A stretch of 21,378 nucleotides of DNA. Source: a virus. This document shows, in pieces, positions 3,700 through 14,953 of this stretch. The stretch is from positions 1 through 21,378 of IMG/VR virus record IMGVR_UViG_3300005289_000091; one strand, 5' to 3'. Position 1 is the first letter of the stretch; every line of letters starts with the position of its first letter. The notes below the pieces were generated by a model that was given only the letters and a program-made list of their open reading frames with translations, had not been told where the DNA came from and searched no databases. Made by a program: the position numbers and the translations under genes.

Positions 3700-4317
3700 A
3701 TGGCACGTCCAAAGGGTGATGCCAGCGACCTGATCAAACGGCTGGAAGCAGCCGCTGCTGTTGCCAAGCCCCGCGACGTCGTGGACGCGCAGGTCATGTC
3801 GAAGATCGTCGGCCAAACTTGGCGCAACCTGCTGGTGACCCACATTGAACCTGACCCGGCGTTCCCGGTCAAACGCCGGGGCGCGGAAGGGGTGGCTTGG
3901 GAGTTTCAGGTGGTAAAGGTGCTGAAGCACATGATCCGCCGGGCGCGCGAACGCATGGCGGCCAACGACGCGGCGGCGCGGCGCATCCACCAGTTGACCA
4001 ACTTCACGGTGCCAGAGGATCCGGCAGGCCCAGTCAGCATCGCTGAACTGAGCAAGCTGGCCGACCTGACGATGCGGGCGCAGGCCATGAAGGAAAAGCA
4101 GAAGGGTTATGTGCCGACGGCGCAGGTCCGCGATTTCCTGACGCGCTACAATTCGGCGGTGATCAGCGCCATTCTGGGCGTGTCGCAGACCGTCGATCCG
4201 AACGGAGGGATGGACCCGGCGGTGCGATCCATGGTCGACAATGAGCTTCGCAATGTGGCGGCCCATGTCGGTGATCAGGTCGACATATTTCTAAGGGAGT
4301 GGGTTGCGAGTCTATAG
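3700..4317 (+). CDS. terS: Terminase small subunit
   Basis: The 205-aa protein starts at ATG 3700 with a strong ribosome binding site, GGAGGT, at 3690-3695. It lies directly before and overlaps a GpA-type large terminase, the usual place for the DNA-recognition subunit. Residues 27-70 (VVDAQVMSKIVGQTWRNLLV, then DPAFPVKRRGAEG and a following helix) look like a Nu1-type winged helix-turn-helix, in which recognition of the cos or pac site is combined with a wing carrying basic residues. The middle (70-135) is helical and rich in Arg, Ala and Lys, suited to oligomerisation. The C-terminal end would contact the large subunit. The call relies on position and the HTH pattern, since small terminases diverge strongly. 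Confidence 0.72.
   Translation: MARPKGDASDLIKRLEAAAAVAKPRDVVDAQVMSKIVGQTWRNLLVTHIEPDPAFPVKRRGAEGVAWEFQVVKVLKHMIRRARERMAANDAAARRIHQLTNFTVPEDPAGPVSIAELSKLADLTMRAQAMKEKQKGYVPTAQVRDFLTRYNSAVISAILGVSQTVDPNGGMDPAVRSMVDNELRNVAAHVGDQVDIFLREWVASL
4293..4306 (+). promoter_or_regulatory. RBS and TTG start of the large terminase gene
   Basis: AAGGGAG at 4293-4299 is followed after four bases by TTG at 4304-4306. No ATG or GTG exists in the terminase frame near this point, and the conserved N-terminus begins immediately. The TTG start lies 14 bases inside the end of the small-subunit gene, so translation is coupled and probably kept low by the weak start codon. Confidence 0.65.
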
Positions 4318-6505
4318 CAGGGCAGAACTGTCCGGGACGATCGAGCAGATCGCCGCCGACGGCTTTTGCACAGACATCGCCAGCATCGCGCGGGACGCCC
4401 GGTCCCACCTTGTTCCGCCGCAGGACATCGGCACCATCGAATGCGCGGAGACGTCGCGCTATTTTCGCTCCCCCAAGGGCGACAAGAAGTTCCTCTGGAG
4501 CCGCGCTCAGACCCCTTATCTGATCGGCCCGGCCAACTTCGGTCTGGACGACGACACCTGTCGCGAAGTGATCATGCCTAAGCCGGGCCGGTCAGGCGGC
4601 ACCGCGATATTCGAGTGCTATGAGCACAAGCTGATGAAGCACGGTCCCATGCCGGACATGCTCATCTATCTGGGGTCGGACAGCGAGGTCGACAGCTACT
4701 GCGACAAGGGATTCAAGTACCTTTTCGAGGACCACCCGGACATCAAGGCCAAAATCGGGCCGGACCGCAGCGACAACAAGATCAAGTCGAAGAAGGTCGA
4801 TGGCCGGTCCGTCGAAGTGCTTCAAGCGAACAACAAGACCGTCACCGGACGGCAAGCTGCGTGGATGCGGGTCGATGAGCTGGACACCTTTCCGGCCAAG
4901 CTCTGCTCCAACTTTCTGGAACAGACGCGCATCCGTGGTCGCCAATTGGGGTCGCACCGCAAGGTGGGCATCACCTCCCACCCGGACATGGGCTGGGCAT
5001 CGGGCGTGGCGCAGGCGTGGACCATGTCGAGCAAGGGCATCTACATCATGCAGTGCCCGAATTGCGGTGGGCACGCTTCGCCATATCCGACCAAGTTCTG
5101 GCCGGACGTGCCCCGCTTCAAGCTGGTTTACGAGAAAATGCCCGACGGCGCGGCGTGGCCGCTGTCCAAACGGCTGAAGGTTGCCGAGCAGACGGCTGCG
5201 ATGCAGTGCCCGCACTGCCTCACCGGCCTGGACGACAAGCAGAGGTTCGCCATGGTGGACGAGGCAGCGGCCGGGCCGACCAACGGCTGGATGCATGAGG
5301 GCCAGACGCTCGACATAGAGGCGGGCATCATGGGCGAGCCGGACGAGAACCCGGCGCGCGGCTTCTGGATTCACGGGTTGATGGTGAAGGCCATCACCAA
5401 CGCGGAACTGGCGCGCGACCTGGAGGGCGCGGTGGCGCATTACCAGTCGACCCGGAAAGTCGACAAGCTACGGCAGGTGCTGGCTAAGGTCTTCGCGGAG
5501 ATTTTCGAAGGTGCGGGCGCCGGGCAGGATCTGGACAGCGCCGGATTGCAGAAGCGCGCCAGGGCATCGGTGGCCGACGACGCTGCGGACGATCTGGTCT
5601 TTTGGGTCGGTCGCTGCCCCCCCGGCGTCCGGTTCATCACTGCGGCGGTCGATCCCGGCCACGGGAAGTTCGACATCAGCTTTCGAGGCTGGGATCTGGA
5701 ATCGCGGTCATGGTGGCTCGACCGGCATACGATCCGCCAGCGGCGGTGGGCGGACGGCGTGATGCGCGACATTCGGCCAACGGACCGCATCGAGGACTGG
5801 GATGTGCTCTATGCGGTGATCAACCGACGCTTCCCGATCATCGGGCGGCCAGGCTGGTCCATGCCGGTGGCGGCGGTGGCCATCGACAGCGGTGACGGCA
5901 ACGCGACATGGAAGGCTCGCGAGTTCGCGCGGCGGTCCATCGCGAAGGGCTGTTTCTGGGGCACCAAGGCAAATCCTTGGCCTAAGGTCCGGCTAATCAA
6001 GGGTGCCAAGCCCAAGGATGCGCCGCCGCTGCCGGTCGTACCGCGCAAGGCGAGCAAGGATGAGCATGGCCACGAGGTTACGCCCATCGTGCTGGAGTTC
6101 GACCTGGGCGTGCATGGCCTCAAGGAACAGTCGATCGAGCGGCTGGGCGTCGCAGACGGCGGGCCGGGCCAGTGCGAGTTCGCGGACGGAATCGCGGCCA
6201 ATCATTTTGACGAATATTTCGGCGAAACGCTGATCGAAGGGAAGTTCGTGCGCAACGGCCCGAACGAAAGCCTCGACCTCTTCGGATACGAGGAGGCCGT
6301 GCGCCAGATGCTTCAGCCGGATCGCACCGACATCAAATGGGACGAAGGGAAATTGCCGCCTTGGGCAACTCCCGTTCCCGACAACGTGGAAGGAGGTGAT
6401 CAAGCGGTTGCGGGCCAGCGGAAGCAGGAGCCTGCGACACCACCGAAAGCCACGAAGCCGAACATTCTTCAACGTTTCGAACAACTCAACCGGGGAACCT
6501 CCTAA
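4304..6505 (+). CDS. terL: Terminase large subunit, lambda GpA family
   Basis: This 733-aa ATPase/nuclease packages phage DNA into the prohead through the portal. The N-terminal ATPase shows a Walker A-like KPGRSGGT at 93-100 and Walker B WMRVDELD at 187-194 (D191, E192). Two CxxC knuckles, C251/C254 (QCPNCGG) and C302/C305 (QCPHC), form the zinc-finger-like insertion typical of GpA (PF05876-type) terminases. The nuclease domain begins near 444 with ITAAVDPGHGKFD, where D450 is the expected first metal ligand. The last 50 or so residues are a Pro/Lys-rich tail that may contact the portal. The length is slightly above lambda GpA (641 aa). Start choice is explained in the TTG entry. It ends with TAATG coupling to the gpW-like gene. 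Confidence 0.95.
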   Translation: MRVYSRAELSGTIEQIAADGFCTDIASIARDARSHLVPPQDIGTIECAETSRYFRSPKGDKKFLWSRAQTPYLIGPANFGLDDDTCREVIMPKPGRSGGTAIFECYEHKLMKHGPMPDMLIYLGSDSEVDSYCDKGFKYLFEDHPDIKAKIGPDRSDNKIKSKKVDGRSVEVLQANNKTVTGRQAAWMRVDELDTFPAKLCSNFLEQTRIRGRQLGSHRKVGITSHPDMGWASGVAQAWTMSSKGIYIMQCPNCGGHASPYPTKFWPDVPRFKLVYEKMPDGAAWPLSKRLKVAEQTAAMQCPHCLTGLDDKQRFAMVDEAAAGPTNGWMHEGQTLDIEAGIMGEPDENPARGFWIHGLMVKAITNAELARDLEGAVAHYQSTRKVDKLRQVLAKVFAEIFEGAGAGQDLDSAGLQKRARASVADDAADDLVFWVGRCPPGVRFITAAVDPGHGKFDISFRGWDLESRSWWLDRHTIRQRRWADGVMRDIRPTDRIEDWDVLYAVINRRFPIIGRPGWSMPVAAVAIDSGDGNATWKAREFARRSIAKGCFWGTKANPWPKVRLIKGAKPKDAPPLPVVPRKASKDEHGHEVTPIVLEFDLGVHGLKEQSIERLGVADGGPGQCEFADGIAANHFDEYFGETLIEGKFVRNGPNESLDLFGYEEAVRQMLQPDRTDIKWDEGKLPPWATPVPDNVEGGDQAVAGQRKQEPATPPKATKPNILQRFEQLNRGTS

Positions 6506-6753: not shown

Positions 6754-8411
6754 TGGGCCTGATCGCGAACCTGTCGAGCGGCCTTGGCCGCGTCGCCTAT
6801 GCTTTCGGCATCGGCGGTCAGCCACGTCGCGACGCTGGCCGCAACGACATCCCGGAACTGAACGGCTGGCAACCCGCTCCCGGCTTTGCAGGGTCCAACA
6901 GCTATGGCGAACGCGACGCCATCCTCGGACGCGCGCGCGACCTCGACAAGAACAATGCGTGGATCAATGGCGGCCTCGACCGCCGCGTTGAGTCCGTCAT
7001 CGGCGGCTCCATTCGCCTGTCTGCCCAGCCCGCAATCGAAATCCTCAACCGGGACTATGATTGGCGGATGAAATGGACCGCTGACGTAGAAGTCCGGTAC
7101 AAGGTCTGGGGCAATGACATCGAACGGCGCTGTGACGCGCGCCAGACGCTGACATTCGGGCAGATTACCCGCCTCGCCTATCTCAGCTACATCCGCGATG
7201 GCGAAGTGGCCGCCGAAATCCGCGACGAGGCGCGCGGCATCTCCAACACCACCAACGTGCTGCTGTTCGAAGCAGAGCGCATCAGCACTCCGCCGATGCT
7301 GAAGTTCGAAGAAGGCCCGGCTCTGCGCAATGGCATCGTTTTCTCCCGCAGCGGCGCGCCGATCGGCTATCATATCGCATCTCGCCATCCGTCCGACACG
7401 GAAGGCGTGCGCGGCGCTGATCGCTGGGATTATGTGCCACGCTTCGGCAGCACCGGCCGGGCAAAGATCATCCACGTCTTCAGCCCACGCTTCGCCGAAC
7501 AAAATCGCGGCATCTCGCGCCTCGCTGAAGCAATGGTGCCGGCGAAGATGCTGGACCGCGTGGATCGCGCAGAGGTGCAGGCCGCGCTGAAGGCGGCCAT
7601 CCTTTCCTTCTTCATCAAGTCGCCCGGCAGCACCGATGATCTTCAGCAGGCGCTCGCTCCGACCGGCGGCGAGAACGAGATTGATGCATGGGTCGAAAAA
7701 TACATCGACCATCGCACCAAATCGCCGGTCCGCATGGACGCGGCACAGATTGTCCACCTCCTCCCCGAAGAGGATGTGGTGGTGCCGAACGCGACGCACC
7801 CAAACAGCAACTATCCGACATTCGCCCGGTTCGTGCTGCAAAAGGTCGCCGCCTCGCTGGGCGTCAGCTACCCGCAGTTGTCGCAGGATTGGGCAGGCAT
7901 CAACTATTCGTCGGCCCGCGCACTGCTGAACGAGCTGTGGCGGTCGTTCCTGGAAGATCGTCAATTCTTCACCCAGCAGTTTTGCACGCCCATCTATGCC
8001 GCATGGCTGGAGGTTGAGGTCGCCAACGGCGATGTGAAGGTGCCGGGCGGCCCGGCGAACTTCTATCGGAACAAGACTGCGATCTGCATGGCGGAATGGA
8101 TCGGGCCGGGCCGTGGCTCTGTCGACCCACTGAAGGAAGCCAACGCGGACAATCTCGACACCGCCGCCGGACGCAAATCCACCGTGGAAGCCATTCTGGA
8201 GCGCGGGCGCGACCCGTCCGATGTGCTGGCGGAAGAGGATTGGTATCTCAAGGAGCGCAAGAAACGCGGCCTGGACGCTCCCAACCACAACGTCAAAGCG
8301 GGCATGGACGCGGCAGAAGGCGGCGCCAGTGGCAGCGAAGATGACCGCGATGGAGATGGCATCGCGAATGAGGGCCAGCAGCCCGGACGGAAGGAGAAGC
8401 TGCCAGCATGA
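6753..8411 (+). CDS. Portal protein, lambda GpB family
   Basis: The 552-aa protein starts at ATG 6753 (TGATG with the gpW-like stop). A TTG three bases earlier is not needed. Hallmarks of lambda-type portals are present: RARDLDKNNAWINGGLDRRV near 59-78, followed by VIGGSIRL; GVRGADRWDYVPRF in the middle; and IIHVFSPRFAEQNRGIS near 235-251. It would form the dodecameric DNA channel and dock the terminase and joining proteins. The C-terminal tail is acidic and then basic, and contains a calcium-loop-like DRDGDGIANE at 531-540, which is unusual for portals. The gene overlaps the downstream protease gene by four bases, as in the lambda B-C order. Confidence 0.94.
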   Translation: MGLIANLSSGLGRVAYAFGIGGQPRRDAGRNDIPELNGWQPAPGFAGSNSYGERDAILGRARDLDKNNAWINGGLDRRVESVIGGSIRLSAQPAIEILNRDYDWRMKWTADVEVRYKVWGNDIERRCDARQTLTFGQITRLAYLSYIRDGEVAAEIRDEARGISNTTNVLLFEAERISTPPMLKFEEGPALRNGIVFSRSGAPIGYHIASRHPSDTEGVRGADRWDYVPRFGSTGRAKIIHVFSPRFAEQNRGISRLAEAMVPAKMLDRVDRAEVQAALKAAILSFFIKSPGSTDDLQQALAPTGGENEIDAWVEKYIDHRTKSPVRMDAAQIVHLLPEEDVVVPNATHPNSNYPTFARFVLQKVAASLGVSYPQLSQDWAGINYSSARALLNELWRSFLEDRQFFTQQFCTPIYAAWLEVEVANGDVKVPGGPANFYRNKTAICMAEWIGPGRGSVDPLKEANADNLDTAAGRKSTVEAILERGRDPSDVLAEEDWYLKERKKRGLDAPNHNVKAGMDAAEGGASGSEDDRDGDGIANEGQQPGRKEKLPA

Positions 8412-11755: not shown

Positions 11756-12096
11756 TGCCCCTTCCTGATCTGGAGAGCAGCACCGCAATGCTGTTCTCCA
11801 AGTCCGACGAACTGCTGGGCGACACCATCACAGTGGTGCCGCCCAGCAGTGCGCCGATCACCCTCAAGGTGCATGCCAGCCACCGCGACAAGACCCGCAT
11901 GCTGGATTTCTCGTCGGCCACTGCACAGGACATCCTGATCGACCTCGACAAGGCATCAGTGCCCGGCAAGCCGATCAGCACTTGGCGCATCGCCCTGCCC
12001 CGTATCCCCGGCAAGGTTTTCTCGCCGAAGGAGGTCAATACCGACGACAGCGGATTCCGGTGGGAGTTCGGACTGAAGGAGGAGCCGAATGGCTGA
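11755..12096 (+). CDS. Head-tail connector, FII-like
   Basis: The 113-aa protein has its ATG overlapping the upstream stop (TGATG). The N-terminal helix (LESSTAMLFSKSDELLGD) is followed by a small all-beta domain: TITVVPPS, PITLKVHASHRDKT, DILIDLDKA, WRIALPRIPGKVFSP, GFRWEFGLK. A short helix plus beta-barrel of 110-120 residues in this position is the build of lambda FII-type (Phage_attach) and related adaptor proteins that form the ring below gpW and receive the tail. The assignment rests on size, fold pattern and order. It overlaps the next gene by eight bases. Confidence 0.6.
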   Translation: MPLPDLESSTAMLFSKSDELLGDTITVVPPSSAPITLKVHASHRDKTRMLDFSSATAQDILIDLDKASVPGKPISTWRIALPRIPGKVFSPKEVNTDDSGFRWEFGLKEEPNG

Positions 12097-12562
12097 CCTT
12101 CCCATTCCGGCAGTCCGTAAGGTGCAGGCCGCAATGATCGCCGCAATTGCGGCCCGGCGGCCGGATCTGAACGGCTTCCCCGATCGCACACCAGGCGAAC
12201 CGCTGAGCGAAGGCGAATGGCCCGGCTATGTCATCCGGTACGAGGTGCGCTTTCGCCTCGCACCGGACGGCGGGCAATATTTCAATGAGGCCCAGTTCAC
12301 CTTCGAGTGCCAGAGCAGCAACGCGCCGGGCGAGCCGCTGGACCACATCAACCAGCAGTCCGTGACGGACATCAACAATGCCCTTCAGGCCGACCCGTCA
12401 CTAGGCGGCATGCTGGAGGATATTCAGCCGCTCGGCTCTGACAATTCTCAACCGGAGTCCCCGGACGTTGGCTCGGCCATCCTTCAGGTGATGGCCACCT
12501 ATTACACGCTGATCCACGACCATTCGACCATCGTCGGGGTCAGCGGCCAGCTCTTTCCCTGA
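12089..12562 (+). CDS. Tail terminator protein, gpU-like
   Basis: The 157-aa protein starts at ATG 12089 inside the end of the previous gene (ATGGCTGA), with AAGGAGGAG just upstream. The pattern is that of tail terminators and completion proteins: an N-terminal helix (IPAVRKVQAAMIAAIAARRP), then a strand-rich core (YVIRYEVRFRLAP, EAQFTFECQSS). A helix follows (DHINQQSVTDINNALQADPSLGG), leading to IQPLGSDNSQPESPDVGSAI and a final strand (VMATYYTLI). The sequence NALQADPSLGGML is a typical marker of this superfamily (gpU / DUF3168-like). It would cap the growing tail tube and form the interface to the head connector. Confidence 0.72.
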   Translation: MADLPIPAVRKVQAAMIAAIAARRPDLNGFPDRTPGEPLSEGEWPGYVIRYEVRFRLAPDGGQYFNEAQFTFECQSSNAPGEPLDHINQQSVTDINNALQADPSLGGMLEDIQPLGSDNSQPESPDVGSAILQVMATYYTLIHDHSTIVGVSGQLFP

Positions 12563-14015: not shown

Positions 14016-14780
14016 GTGGCCTCCACTCCCGTTGAAGCTTCGCACATCAAGCGGTTCACCCCCGCTTCGTTGGCGGAAATCGAAGGTGCTCCCGTCTTCC
14101 TGCTCAAAGCAGGGTCAAGACGGGACCGCCTGCGCCATGAAGAAATCATGGCTGAAGAGCATCTGAACCATTACGATCAAGAGAGCATCCGCGCGGAAAC
14201 TCTGCGCGGACTCGAAGCCCTTTGGTCCCCCGACGACTATGAAATTTGGGCGCCACGCCTTCAGATGTTCTGGGAAGCGCGGGACCAATGGGTAGAAGAG
14301 AACCGCGATCTGGAGGAAAAGGCTCCGTTCGAATTCACCGACTTCGATCCCGCCGAGGTTCGTAGCCTCTCCTCCCGTGTGTCGGAGAACTGGCCGCCCC
14401 TGCGCAAAATGGCCATCGCCAACTTGAAGTTCGATCGCGAATTTCCAAAGCAGATCGGCAGCATCATTCTGGTGGGCTGGTCCGGAATCGAAGCAAAGTT
14501 CGAGCGGGCTGACGGCCTTGTCTCGCTCGACGCGATTGACCTGCTGGAGAGAGACCTGGCCAAGATCGAATTCGAGCGGCTGGGCACCAAGTCCGGTGCG
14601 ATTTTCGCTGAACTGATGCTGGAATGCGCCAATCGGCTCTTCCTTAGCGCGAGTGCGGAAAAAAACTCCGCATCGCAGCCGCCGTCCTCCACCGCCCCGC
14701 CGATTTCGAACAATGGGCAGGAGTTACAAGCTGGCACGTCGAAGGCGTCGGAGATTTCTCCCGAAACCCCCGCGAGCTAA
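14016..14780 (+). CDS. Tail assembly chaperone, gpG-like (unshifted product)
   Basis: The 254-aa protein starts with GTG at 14016, preceded by GGAG at 14005-14008. It lies between the tube and tape measure genes, as lambda G. The body (1-210) is charged and helical (LRHEEIMAEEHLNHYDQESI, ETLRGLEALWSPDDYEIW, IDLLERDLAKIEFERLG). After residue 217 the unshifted frame continues in a low-complexity Ser/Pro/Thr tail (SASQPPSSTAPPISNNGQ) to TAA at 14778-14780. That tail looks like a read-through region rather than a domain, as expected where a second frame encodes the T part. In lambda, G and GT coat the tape measure during tube assembly and are absent from the virion. Confidence 0.78.
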   Translation: MASTPVEASHIKRFTPASLAEIEGAPVFLLKAGSRRDRLRHEEIMAEEHLNHYDQESIRAETLRGLEALWSPDDYEIWAPRLQMFWEARDQWVEENRDLEEKAPFEFTDFDPAEVRSLSSRVSENWPPLRKMAIANLKFDREFPKQIGSIILVGWSGIEAKFERADGLVSLDAIDLLERDLAKIEFERLGTKSGAIFAELMLECANRLFLSASAEKNSASQPPSSTAPPISNNGQELQAGTSKASEISPETPAS

Positions 14781-14953
14781 TTACCAAGGCCGACATTGAT
14801 CTCATCCGGATCTACCAGCAGTGCGACCGTGGCCTTAGCGGTCATGTCTGGCCCGACGGCGGAGCGCTGCTGGACCAGCCCAATGTGTTGATCCAGGCCT
14901 TTAATGTTATCGGGAACGCTCTTCATCAGTTGAAGAAGGCGGGCGAGACCTGA
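14016..14953 (+). CDS. GT-like frameshift fusion (-1 shift at 14660-14666)
   Basis: A -1 shift at A AAA AAC joins the first 217 codons of the chaperone to a second frame that runs to TGA at 14951-14953, giving about 312 aa. The downstream frame is open only from 14648 (TAG at 14645-14647). It contains no ATG, and its first usable start codon is a GTG near its end at 14885, so it can hardly be expressed except by shifting. Its translation is protein-like, unlike the overlapping tail of the zero frame: VLHRPADFEQWAGVTSW, then LITKADIDLIRIYQQC, and a helical end (VLIQAFNVIGNALHQLKKAGE). Position, size and shift direction match the G/GT system of lambda-like tails, where the T domain binds the tube protein. 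Confidence 0.8.
14660..14666 (+). promoter_or_regulatory. Slippery heptamer for programmed -1 frameshift
   Basis: The bases A AAA AAC are in the X XXY YYZ phase of the chaperone frame (GAA AAA AAC = Glu-Lys-Asn), the perfect form for simultaneous -1 slippage of two tRNAs. It lies 13 bases after the last stop of the -1 frame and 112 bases before the stop of the zero frame. I see no obvious strong hairpin directly downstream and no good SD-like stimulator upstream; lambda G-T (G GGA AAG) is not known for one either. Confidence 0.82.

Follow-up and report, generated by a model that had tools for sequence, protein, structure and literature searches.

The window, by which we mean the whole stretch of DNA analysed here, is a 21,378-base virus record, and the hosts of this virus are sphingomonad bacteria. 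A TerL of the lambda gpA type is encoded at positions 4304-6505 (Pfam GpA_ATPase and GpA_nuclease). The tail genes follow in the order tail-terminator-like gene, presumed major tail protein (MTP), G-T, one further gene and tape measure protein (TMP), as listed in Table 1. The position of G-T between the presumed MTP and the TMP gene is the usual location of G/GT genes and supports a lambda-like G/GT chaperone. Homologues of the presumed MTP, at 49-90% identity, are present in the related loci L002-L005. In tblastn the TMP had weak hits, with an E of 1e-7 and covering 8% of the query, to proteins annotated as tail tape measure proteins in the Sphingomonas phages Lucius and Kharn. The 236-aa gene ahead of it gave no match in Pfam or PHROGs. 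In L003 about 0.7 kb of additional DNA (7140-7862, with an ORF at 7242-7538) lies downstream of T, ahead of the next tail gene; it is found neither in the window nor in the near relatives L002 and L004.

Table 1. Features of the tail gene region of the window
Feature	Position	Strand	Basis or remark
Tail-terminator-like gene	12089-12562		phrog_4204, E 2.7e-4
Presumed MTP, 396 aa	12811-14001	+	synteny only, downstream of the tail-terminator-like gene
G, putative zero-frame tail assembly chaperone, 254 codons	14016-14780	+	ORF and homologues
-1 (T) frame	14648-14953	+	opens past TAG 14645-14647; 101 codons 14648-14950; TGA 14951-14953
Slippery heptamer A AAA AAC	14660-14666	+	in phase with G (..GCG GAA AAA AAC TCC..), near the 3' end of G
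T domain, 95 aa, as translated past the shift (LRIAAAV...KKAGET)	14666-14950	+
Dual-coded overlap, 37 codons	14667-14777	+	zero-frame Ser/Thr/Pro/Ala tail over the T frame
Unknown-family gene, 236 aa	14994-15704	+	ORF downstream of T, ahead of the tape measure gene; homologues in relatives
TMP, 1382 aa	15705-19853	+	weak tblastn matches; length and position

G begins at a GTG preceded by GGAG (CCCGGAGATAGTCTGTG) and stops at TAA 14778-14780. A start-less frame of 101 codons overlapping the end of this gene, with a perfect A AAA AAC in the correct phase, had been predicted earlier from the sequence; all coordinates and numbers given for the frame are correct, and the heptamer is indeed found in phase within the gene that starts at GTG 14016. 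In the T frame ATG, GTG and TTG are absent until GTG 14885, which is positioned too late to yield the T domain. The predicted products are G of 254 aa and a G-T fusion of 217 + 95 = 312 aa with the junction ...AEKN|LRIAAAV. The AlphaFold model of G (mean pLDDT 80) has an ordered helical core at approximately residues 8-212, while residues 213-254 have pLDDT below 50; the model of the T domain has a mean pLDDT of 78. A scan of nine window genes gave only two other in-phase sites of the X XXY YYZ type (Y being A or T), and neither of them is AAAAAAC or GGGAAAC. The heptamer at the G/T junction is thus more than is expected by chance.

Conservation of the slip site and of both reading frames

Relatives of the locus were gathered through the MTP, the TMP and then the T alignment from virus contigs and Sphingomonadaceae genomes. 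Removal of near-copies left 25 distinct loci, and four more distant ones bring the set to 29. G alone as a query gave zero matches in the phage records and in the contigs of viruses and genomes. The T domain of the window shares 25-74% identity with its homologues, including the motif CDRGmxGxVxPDGGAxLDQP. According to the original prediction, homologues would tell whether the second frame is degenerate or has a start of its own. The -1 frame is open in 29 of the 29 distinct loci, and a start codon usable for the T domain alone is absent in almost all of them.

The heptamer is present in phase at the same point in every one of the 29 loci, as A AAA AAC in 23 and as G GGA AAC in six. The six G-type sites all belong to the core set of 25 (A AAA AAC in 19), and the four distant loci carry A AAA AAC. 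The wobble base before the P-site codon matches in 25/25 loci, which follows from the definition of the heptamer, and the match is made by varied codons: GAA, GCA or CTA ahead of AAA AAC, and GTG, GCG, TCG, GAG or CTG ahead of GGA AAC. In the G frames of the family AAA makes up 26% of Lys codons and codons ending with A only 9.6%; nonetheless 19 of the 19 A-type loci keep both. Raw probabilities calculated for such codon retention are too small, because the loci are phylogenetically non-independent. The tree requires at least two switches between the A and G types, and these fall on well-supported branches.

Both reading frames leave their mark on the nucleotide differences. Among the four closest loci, differences in the T-only part are mostly in third positions (0.52 vs 0.23 and 0.18), and in the overlap the third positions of T are slower (0.36). 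The zero-frame stop lies +115 to +124 nt past the heptamer in the 25 distinct loci except L044, L047 and L048. It interchanges between TAA, TAG and TGA by way of T codons such as CTA, GTA and ATA, which the window genes seldom use (CTA makes up 3.5% of Leu codons and GTA 5.5% of Val codons). The G and T frames are both constrained.

As observed originally, a clear downstream stimulatory structure is not seen in the window (z +0.9 and +0.6). In the family as a whole there is a modest folding excess at +10 to +110 nt (mean z -1.46 ± 0.23, compared with -0.15 to -0.74 in other folding windows), and RNAalifold did not find a consensus structure for 16 loci. A ten-pair stem of -15.1 kcal/mol can be drawn at 14649-14677 of the window, with the heptamer exactly in its loop. 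Similar stems are found in only a few relatives, the stem is not a structure common to the family, and we treat it as incidental.

The zero-frame tail beyond the slip site

The sequence had been described earlier as a Ser/Pro tail in the zero frame and a structured domain in the shifted frame. This description needs amendment in one respect: the tail itself seems to be selected in most relatives and is not only a by-product of the T frame. Note that the wobble base of a T codon is the second base of a zero-frame codon and therefore largely sets the polarity of the zero-frame residue. In the window, the T wobble is C or A at a frequency of 0.84 in the overlap vs 0.42 in the T-only part. In 25 loci with overlapping frames it is C or A in 80% of codons 1-38 and in 46% of the remaining T, the difference having the same sign in 25/25. 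The simplest reading is that selection favours a G tail that is open, polar and disordered.

There are relatives in which the zero frame terminates directly past the heptamer (AAC TGA or AAC TAA in L044, L047, L053, L116 and L118), so that the tail is removed. In the tail-less L044, L047, L116 and L118 the bias is largely gone (wobble C or A 55% vs 47%, not significant). We also redrew T codons from the family codon usage. The simulated zero frames had a Ser, Thr, Pro and Ala content of 0.47 vs 0.62 observed, and hydrophobic residues amounted to 0.19 vs 0.05 observed. Stops in the simulated frames numbered about 12 in total, compared with none in the real frame before its proper end. The possibility that the tail is a mere shadow of T, i.e. 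a by-product of GC-rich wobble positions, is ruled out by the codon simulation together with the natural controls. Pooled Fisher probabilities ignore shared ancestry, and for this reason the reading of the tail is based on the natural controls and on comparison locus by locus.

Our results make it reasonably probable that the zero-frame extension is a disordered tail of G with a function, kept by selection and dual-coded on the DNA that begins the T domain, and that the C-termini of G and G-T are individually selected. Tail loss would then be an evolutionary alternative; since some relatives do without the tail, it is not essential everywhere. If this is true, the unshifted chaperone is more than a truncated G-T. 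A long zero-frame extension was also observed in a DUF1799-type locus, L097 (approximately 1357-1480; NPSPAPGPAAAPAAGATPQPSRK...), from which it may be that a polar dual-coded tail arose in a second chaperone family.

Proposed frameshifting and its alternatives

The locus very probably encodes a lambda-type G/GT tail assembly chaperone pair expressed through programmed -1 ribosomal frameshifting. The sequences show the anatomy, the conserved heptamer with its matched A/G switch, the conserved T frame lacking starts and the constraint on both frames; the slippage, its rate and the chaperone function are inferred. The original proposal of such a pair is supported by the 29 loci with an open -1 frame and an in-phase heptamer. 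Most ribosomes would reach TAA 14778 and produce the 254-aa chaperone, consisting of a folded helical domain and a disordered polar tail. A minority would make a tandem one-base back-slip at the heptamer and go on in the T frame to complete the 312-aa fusion. By analogy with lambda, G would coat the tape measure protein, the major tail protein would be recruited by the T domain, and tail assembly would be controlled by the ratio of G to G-T.

G and T could also be joined at the level of mRNA. The window has a run of seven A (14659-14665) on which RNA polymerase might slip, and the mRNAs with an altered number of A would be translated conventionally. The six relatives with G GGA AAC have no run longer than three, which excludes homopolymer slippage there, and several A-type relatives have just six or seven A. 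What is conserved is the tandem-slip pattern and not the homopolymer. Retention of a slip-competent pattern while its letters change is the strongest evidence in this study, both in favour of ribosomal frameshifting by tandem slip and against transcriptional slippage on an A run; the latter we consider very improbable. It is even harder to credit a free T protein, not fused to G, that arises from internal initiation or termination-reinitiation. A GTG or TTG occurs upstream in the T frame at some related loci, but neither the window nor most relatives have ATG, GTG or TTG ahead of the conserved domain, and the conservation of the heptamer would lack a reason. Nor is the frame break a mutation or sequencing error in a formerly continuous gene. 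The joined frames do give one protein, and beyond this we found no support for such an origin: the identical arrangement recurs across 29 distinct loci whose assemblies are independent, and the stops of both frames are conserved, by which this explanation is refuted.

There remains the identity of the product. The frameshift could be real and its product not a chaperone of the tape measure but another tail protein, for instance a structural one. Homology to known chaperones was not detected, and G is larger than lambda gpG, which has 140 aa. Pfam and PHROGs searches with G and T returned no significant match, and nor did the Rfam search. The best hit to PHROG 313 'Tail assembly chaperone' had an E of 0.026 in one of 12 homologues, which is not significant. 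At E<=0.001 Foldseek returned nothing for the G or T models in the viral library and nothing for G in the PDB. By these searches the G/T family appears to be uncatalogued, being absent from the libraries searched. Known tail chaperones are highly diverged among themselves. Lack of a homology or fold match thus lowers the probability of membership by descent and does not touch the claim that the proteins work alike. Since no sequence or fold match identifies G or T, we infer the chaperone function from gene order and architecture: by its anatomy the G-T gene is expected to work like G/GT. The location between the presumed MTP and the TMP, the ordered core with a small -1 domain and the kind of heptamer all fit G/GT genes, and another kind of tail protein is a very unlikely product.

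AAC in the A site and comparison with known systems

The original prediction pointed out that AAC in the A site is usually less slippery than AAG in E. coli. This is correct: in E. coli constructs A_AAA_AAC is much weaker than A_AAA_AAG (PMC5009743), which counts against the proposed frameshift. AAC is nevertheless usual in the g-t setting and not a peculiarity. AAC g-t sites are on record in phiCbK (AAAAAAC) and Colossus (GGGAAAC) (PMC3556154) and in HCTV-1 (G_GGA_AAC) and HCTV-2 (A_AAA_AAC) (PMC5009743). In the loci sampled here AAC sites are near-universal. In an outgroup sample of proteobacterial DUF1799 loci (L096-L098, L099-L114 and L120-L149), 47 of 49 have an in-phase A AAA AAC or G GGA AAC; of the other two, one has A AAA AAG and the second gave no site.

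A tRNA explanation for this preference did not hold up. Sphingobium has tRNA-Lys(CUU), and this tRNA could disfavour AAG. As a general cause it fails, because hosts with no Lys-CUU gene listed by pattern search (e.g. G942, G985, G1006, G980, G993 and G822) use AAC too. A simpler conjecture is that the C of AAC keeps the invariant first T residue Leu (CTN) and permits a zero-frame UGA.

A frameshifted G/GT gene is a known kind of gene, and both heptamers have already been published as g-t sites. What is added here is the uncatalogued family, the matched A/G heptamer switch and the apparently selected dual-coded tail. Members of the family come from Sphingomonadaceae genomes and related virus contigs and add 29 natural shift-site variants to the frameshifted tail genes. 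The A/G switch, the tail-bearing and tail-less relatives and the strict A-site AAC are comparisons ready to hand; they bear on the questions why phages of bacteria choose a site with weak activity in E. coli, and what purpose, if any, the tail of the unshifted chaperone serves.

Compared with lambda gpG/gpGT, the gene order, the zero-frame protein with a -1 C-terminal extension and the tandem-slip heptamer, in phase and close to the zero-frame end, are alike. The heptamer differs (G GGA AAG in lambda, A AAA AAC here), sequence similarity was not detected, and G here has 254 aa, its frame continuing for 37 codons beyond the slip as a disordered tail. The chaperones encoded ahead of the tape measure gene in the Caulobacter phages phiCbK and Colossus likewise belong to alphaproteobacterial hosts and use the same two heptamers, AAAAAAC in phiCbK and its relatives and GGGAAAC in Colossus (PMC3556154). 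These are large prolate phages, and the window proteins gave no match in the phage collection. Among the g-t genes of the haloarchaeal viruses HCTV-1, HCTV-2 and HCTV-5 (PMC5009743), those of HCTV-1 and HCTV-2 have these heptamers as shift sites; the hosts are archaeal, and no search linked these viruses to the window.

Pfam DUF1799 (PF08809), whose function is unknown, seems to serve as the -1 (T) domain in a frameshifted tail chaperone; in the literature searched we found no paper that mentions DUF1799 together with frameshifting. A relationship of the window T domain to DUF1799 was considered and rejected, as hmmscan gave no DUF1799 match for T of the window or its relatives and hhalign against 28 DUF1799 T domains gave a probability of 1.8%. 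The DUF1799 chaperones differ from the family described here in this respect, and also in that their zero frame usually stops at the codon next to the heptamer. They are similar in that the T frame is likewise entered at A AAA AAC or G GGA AAC and the T domain starts with Leu after the slip.
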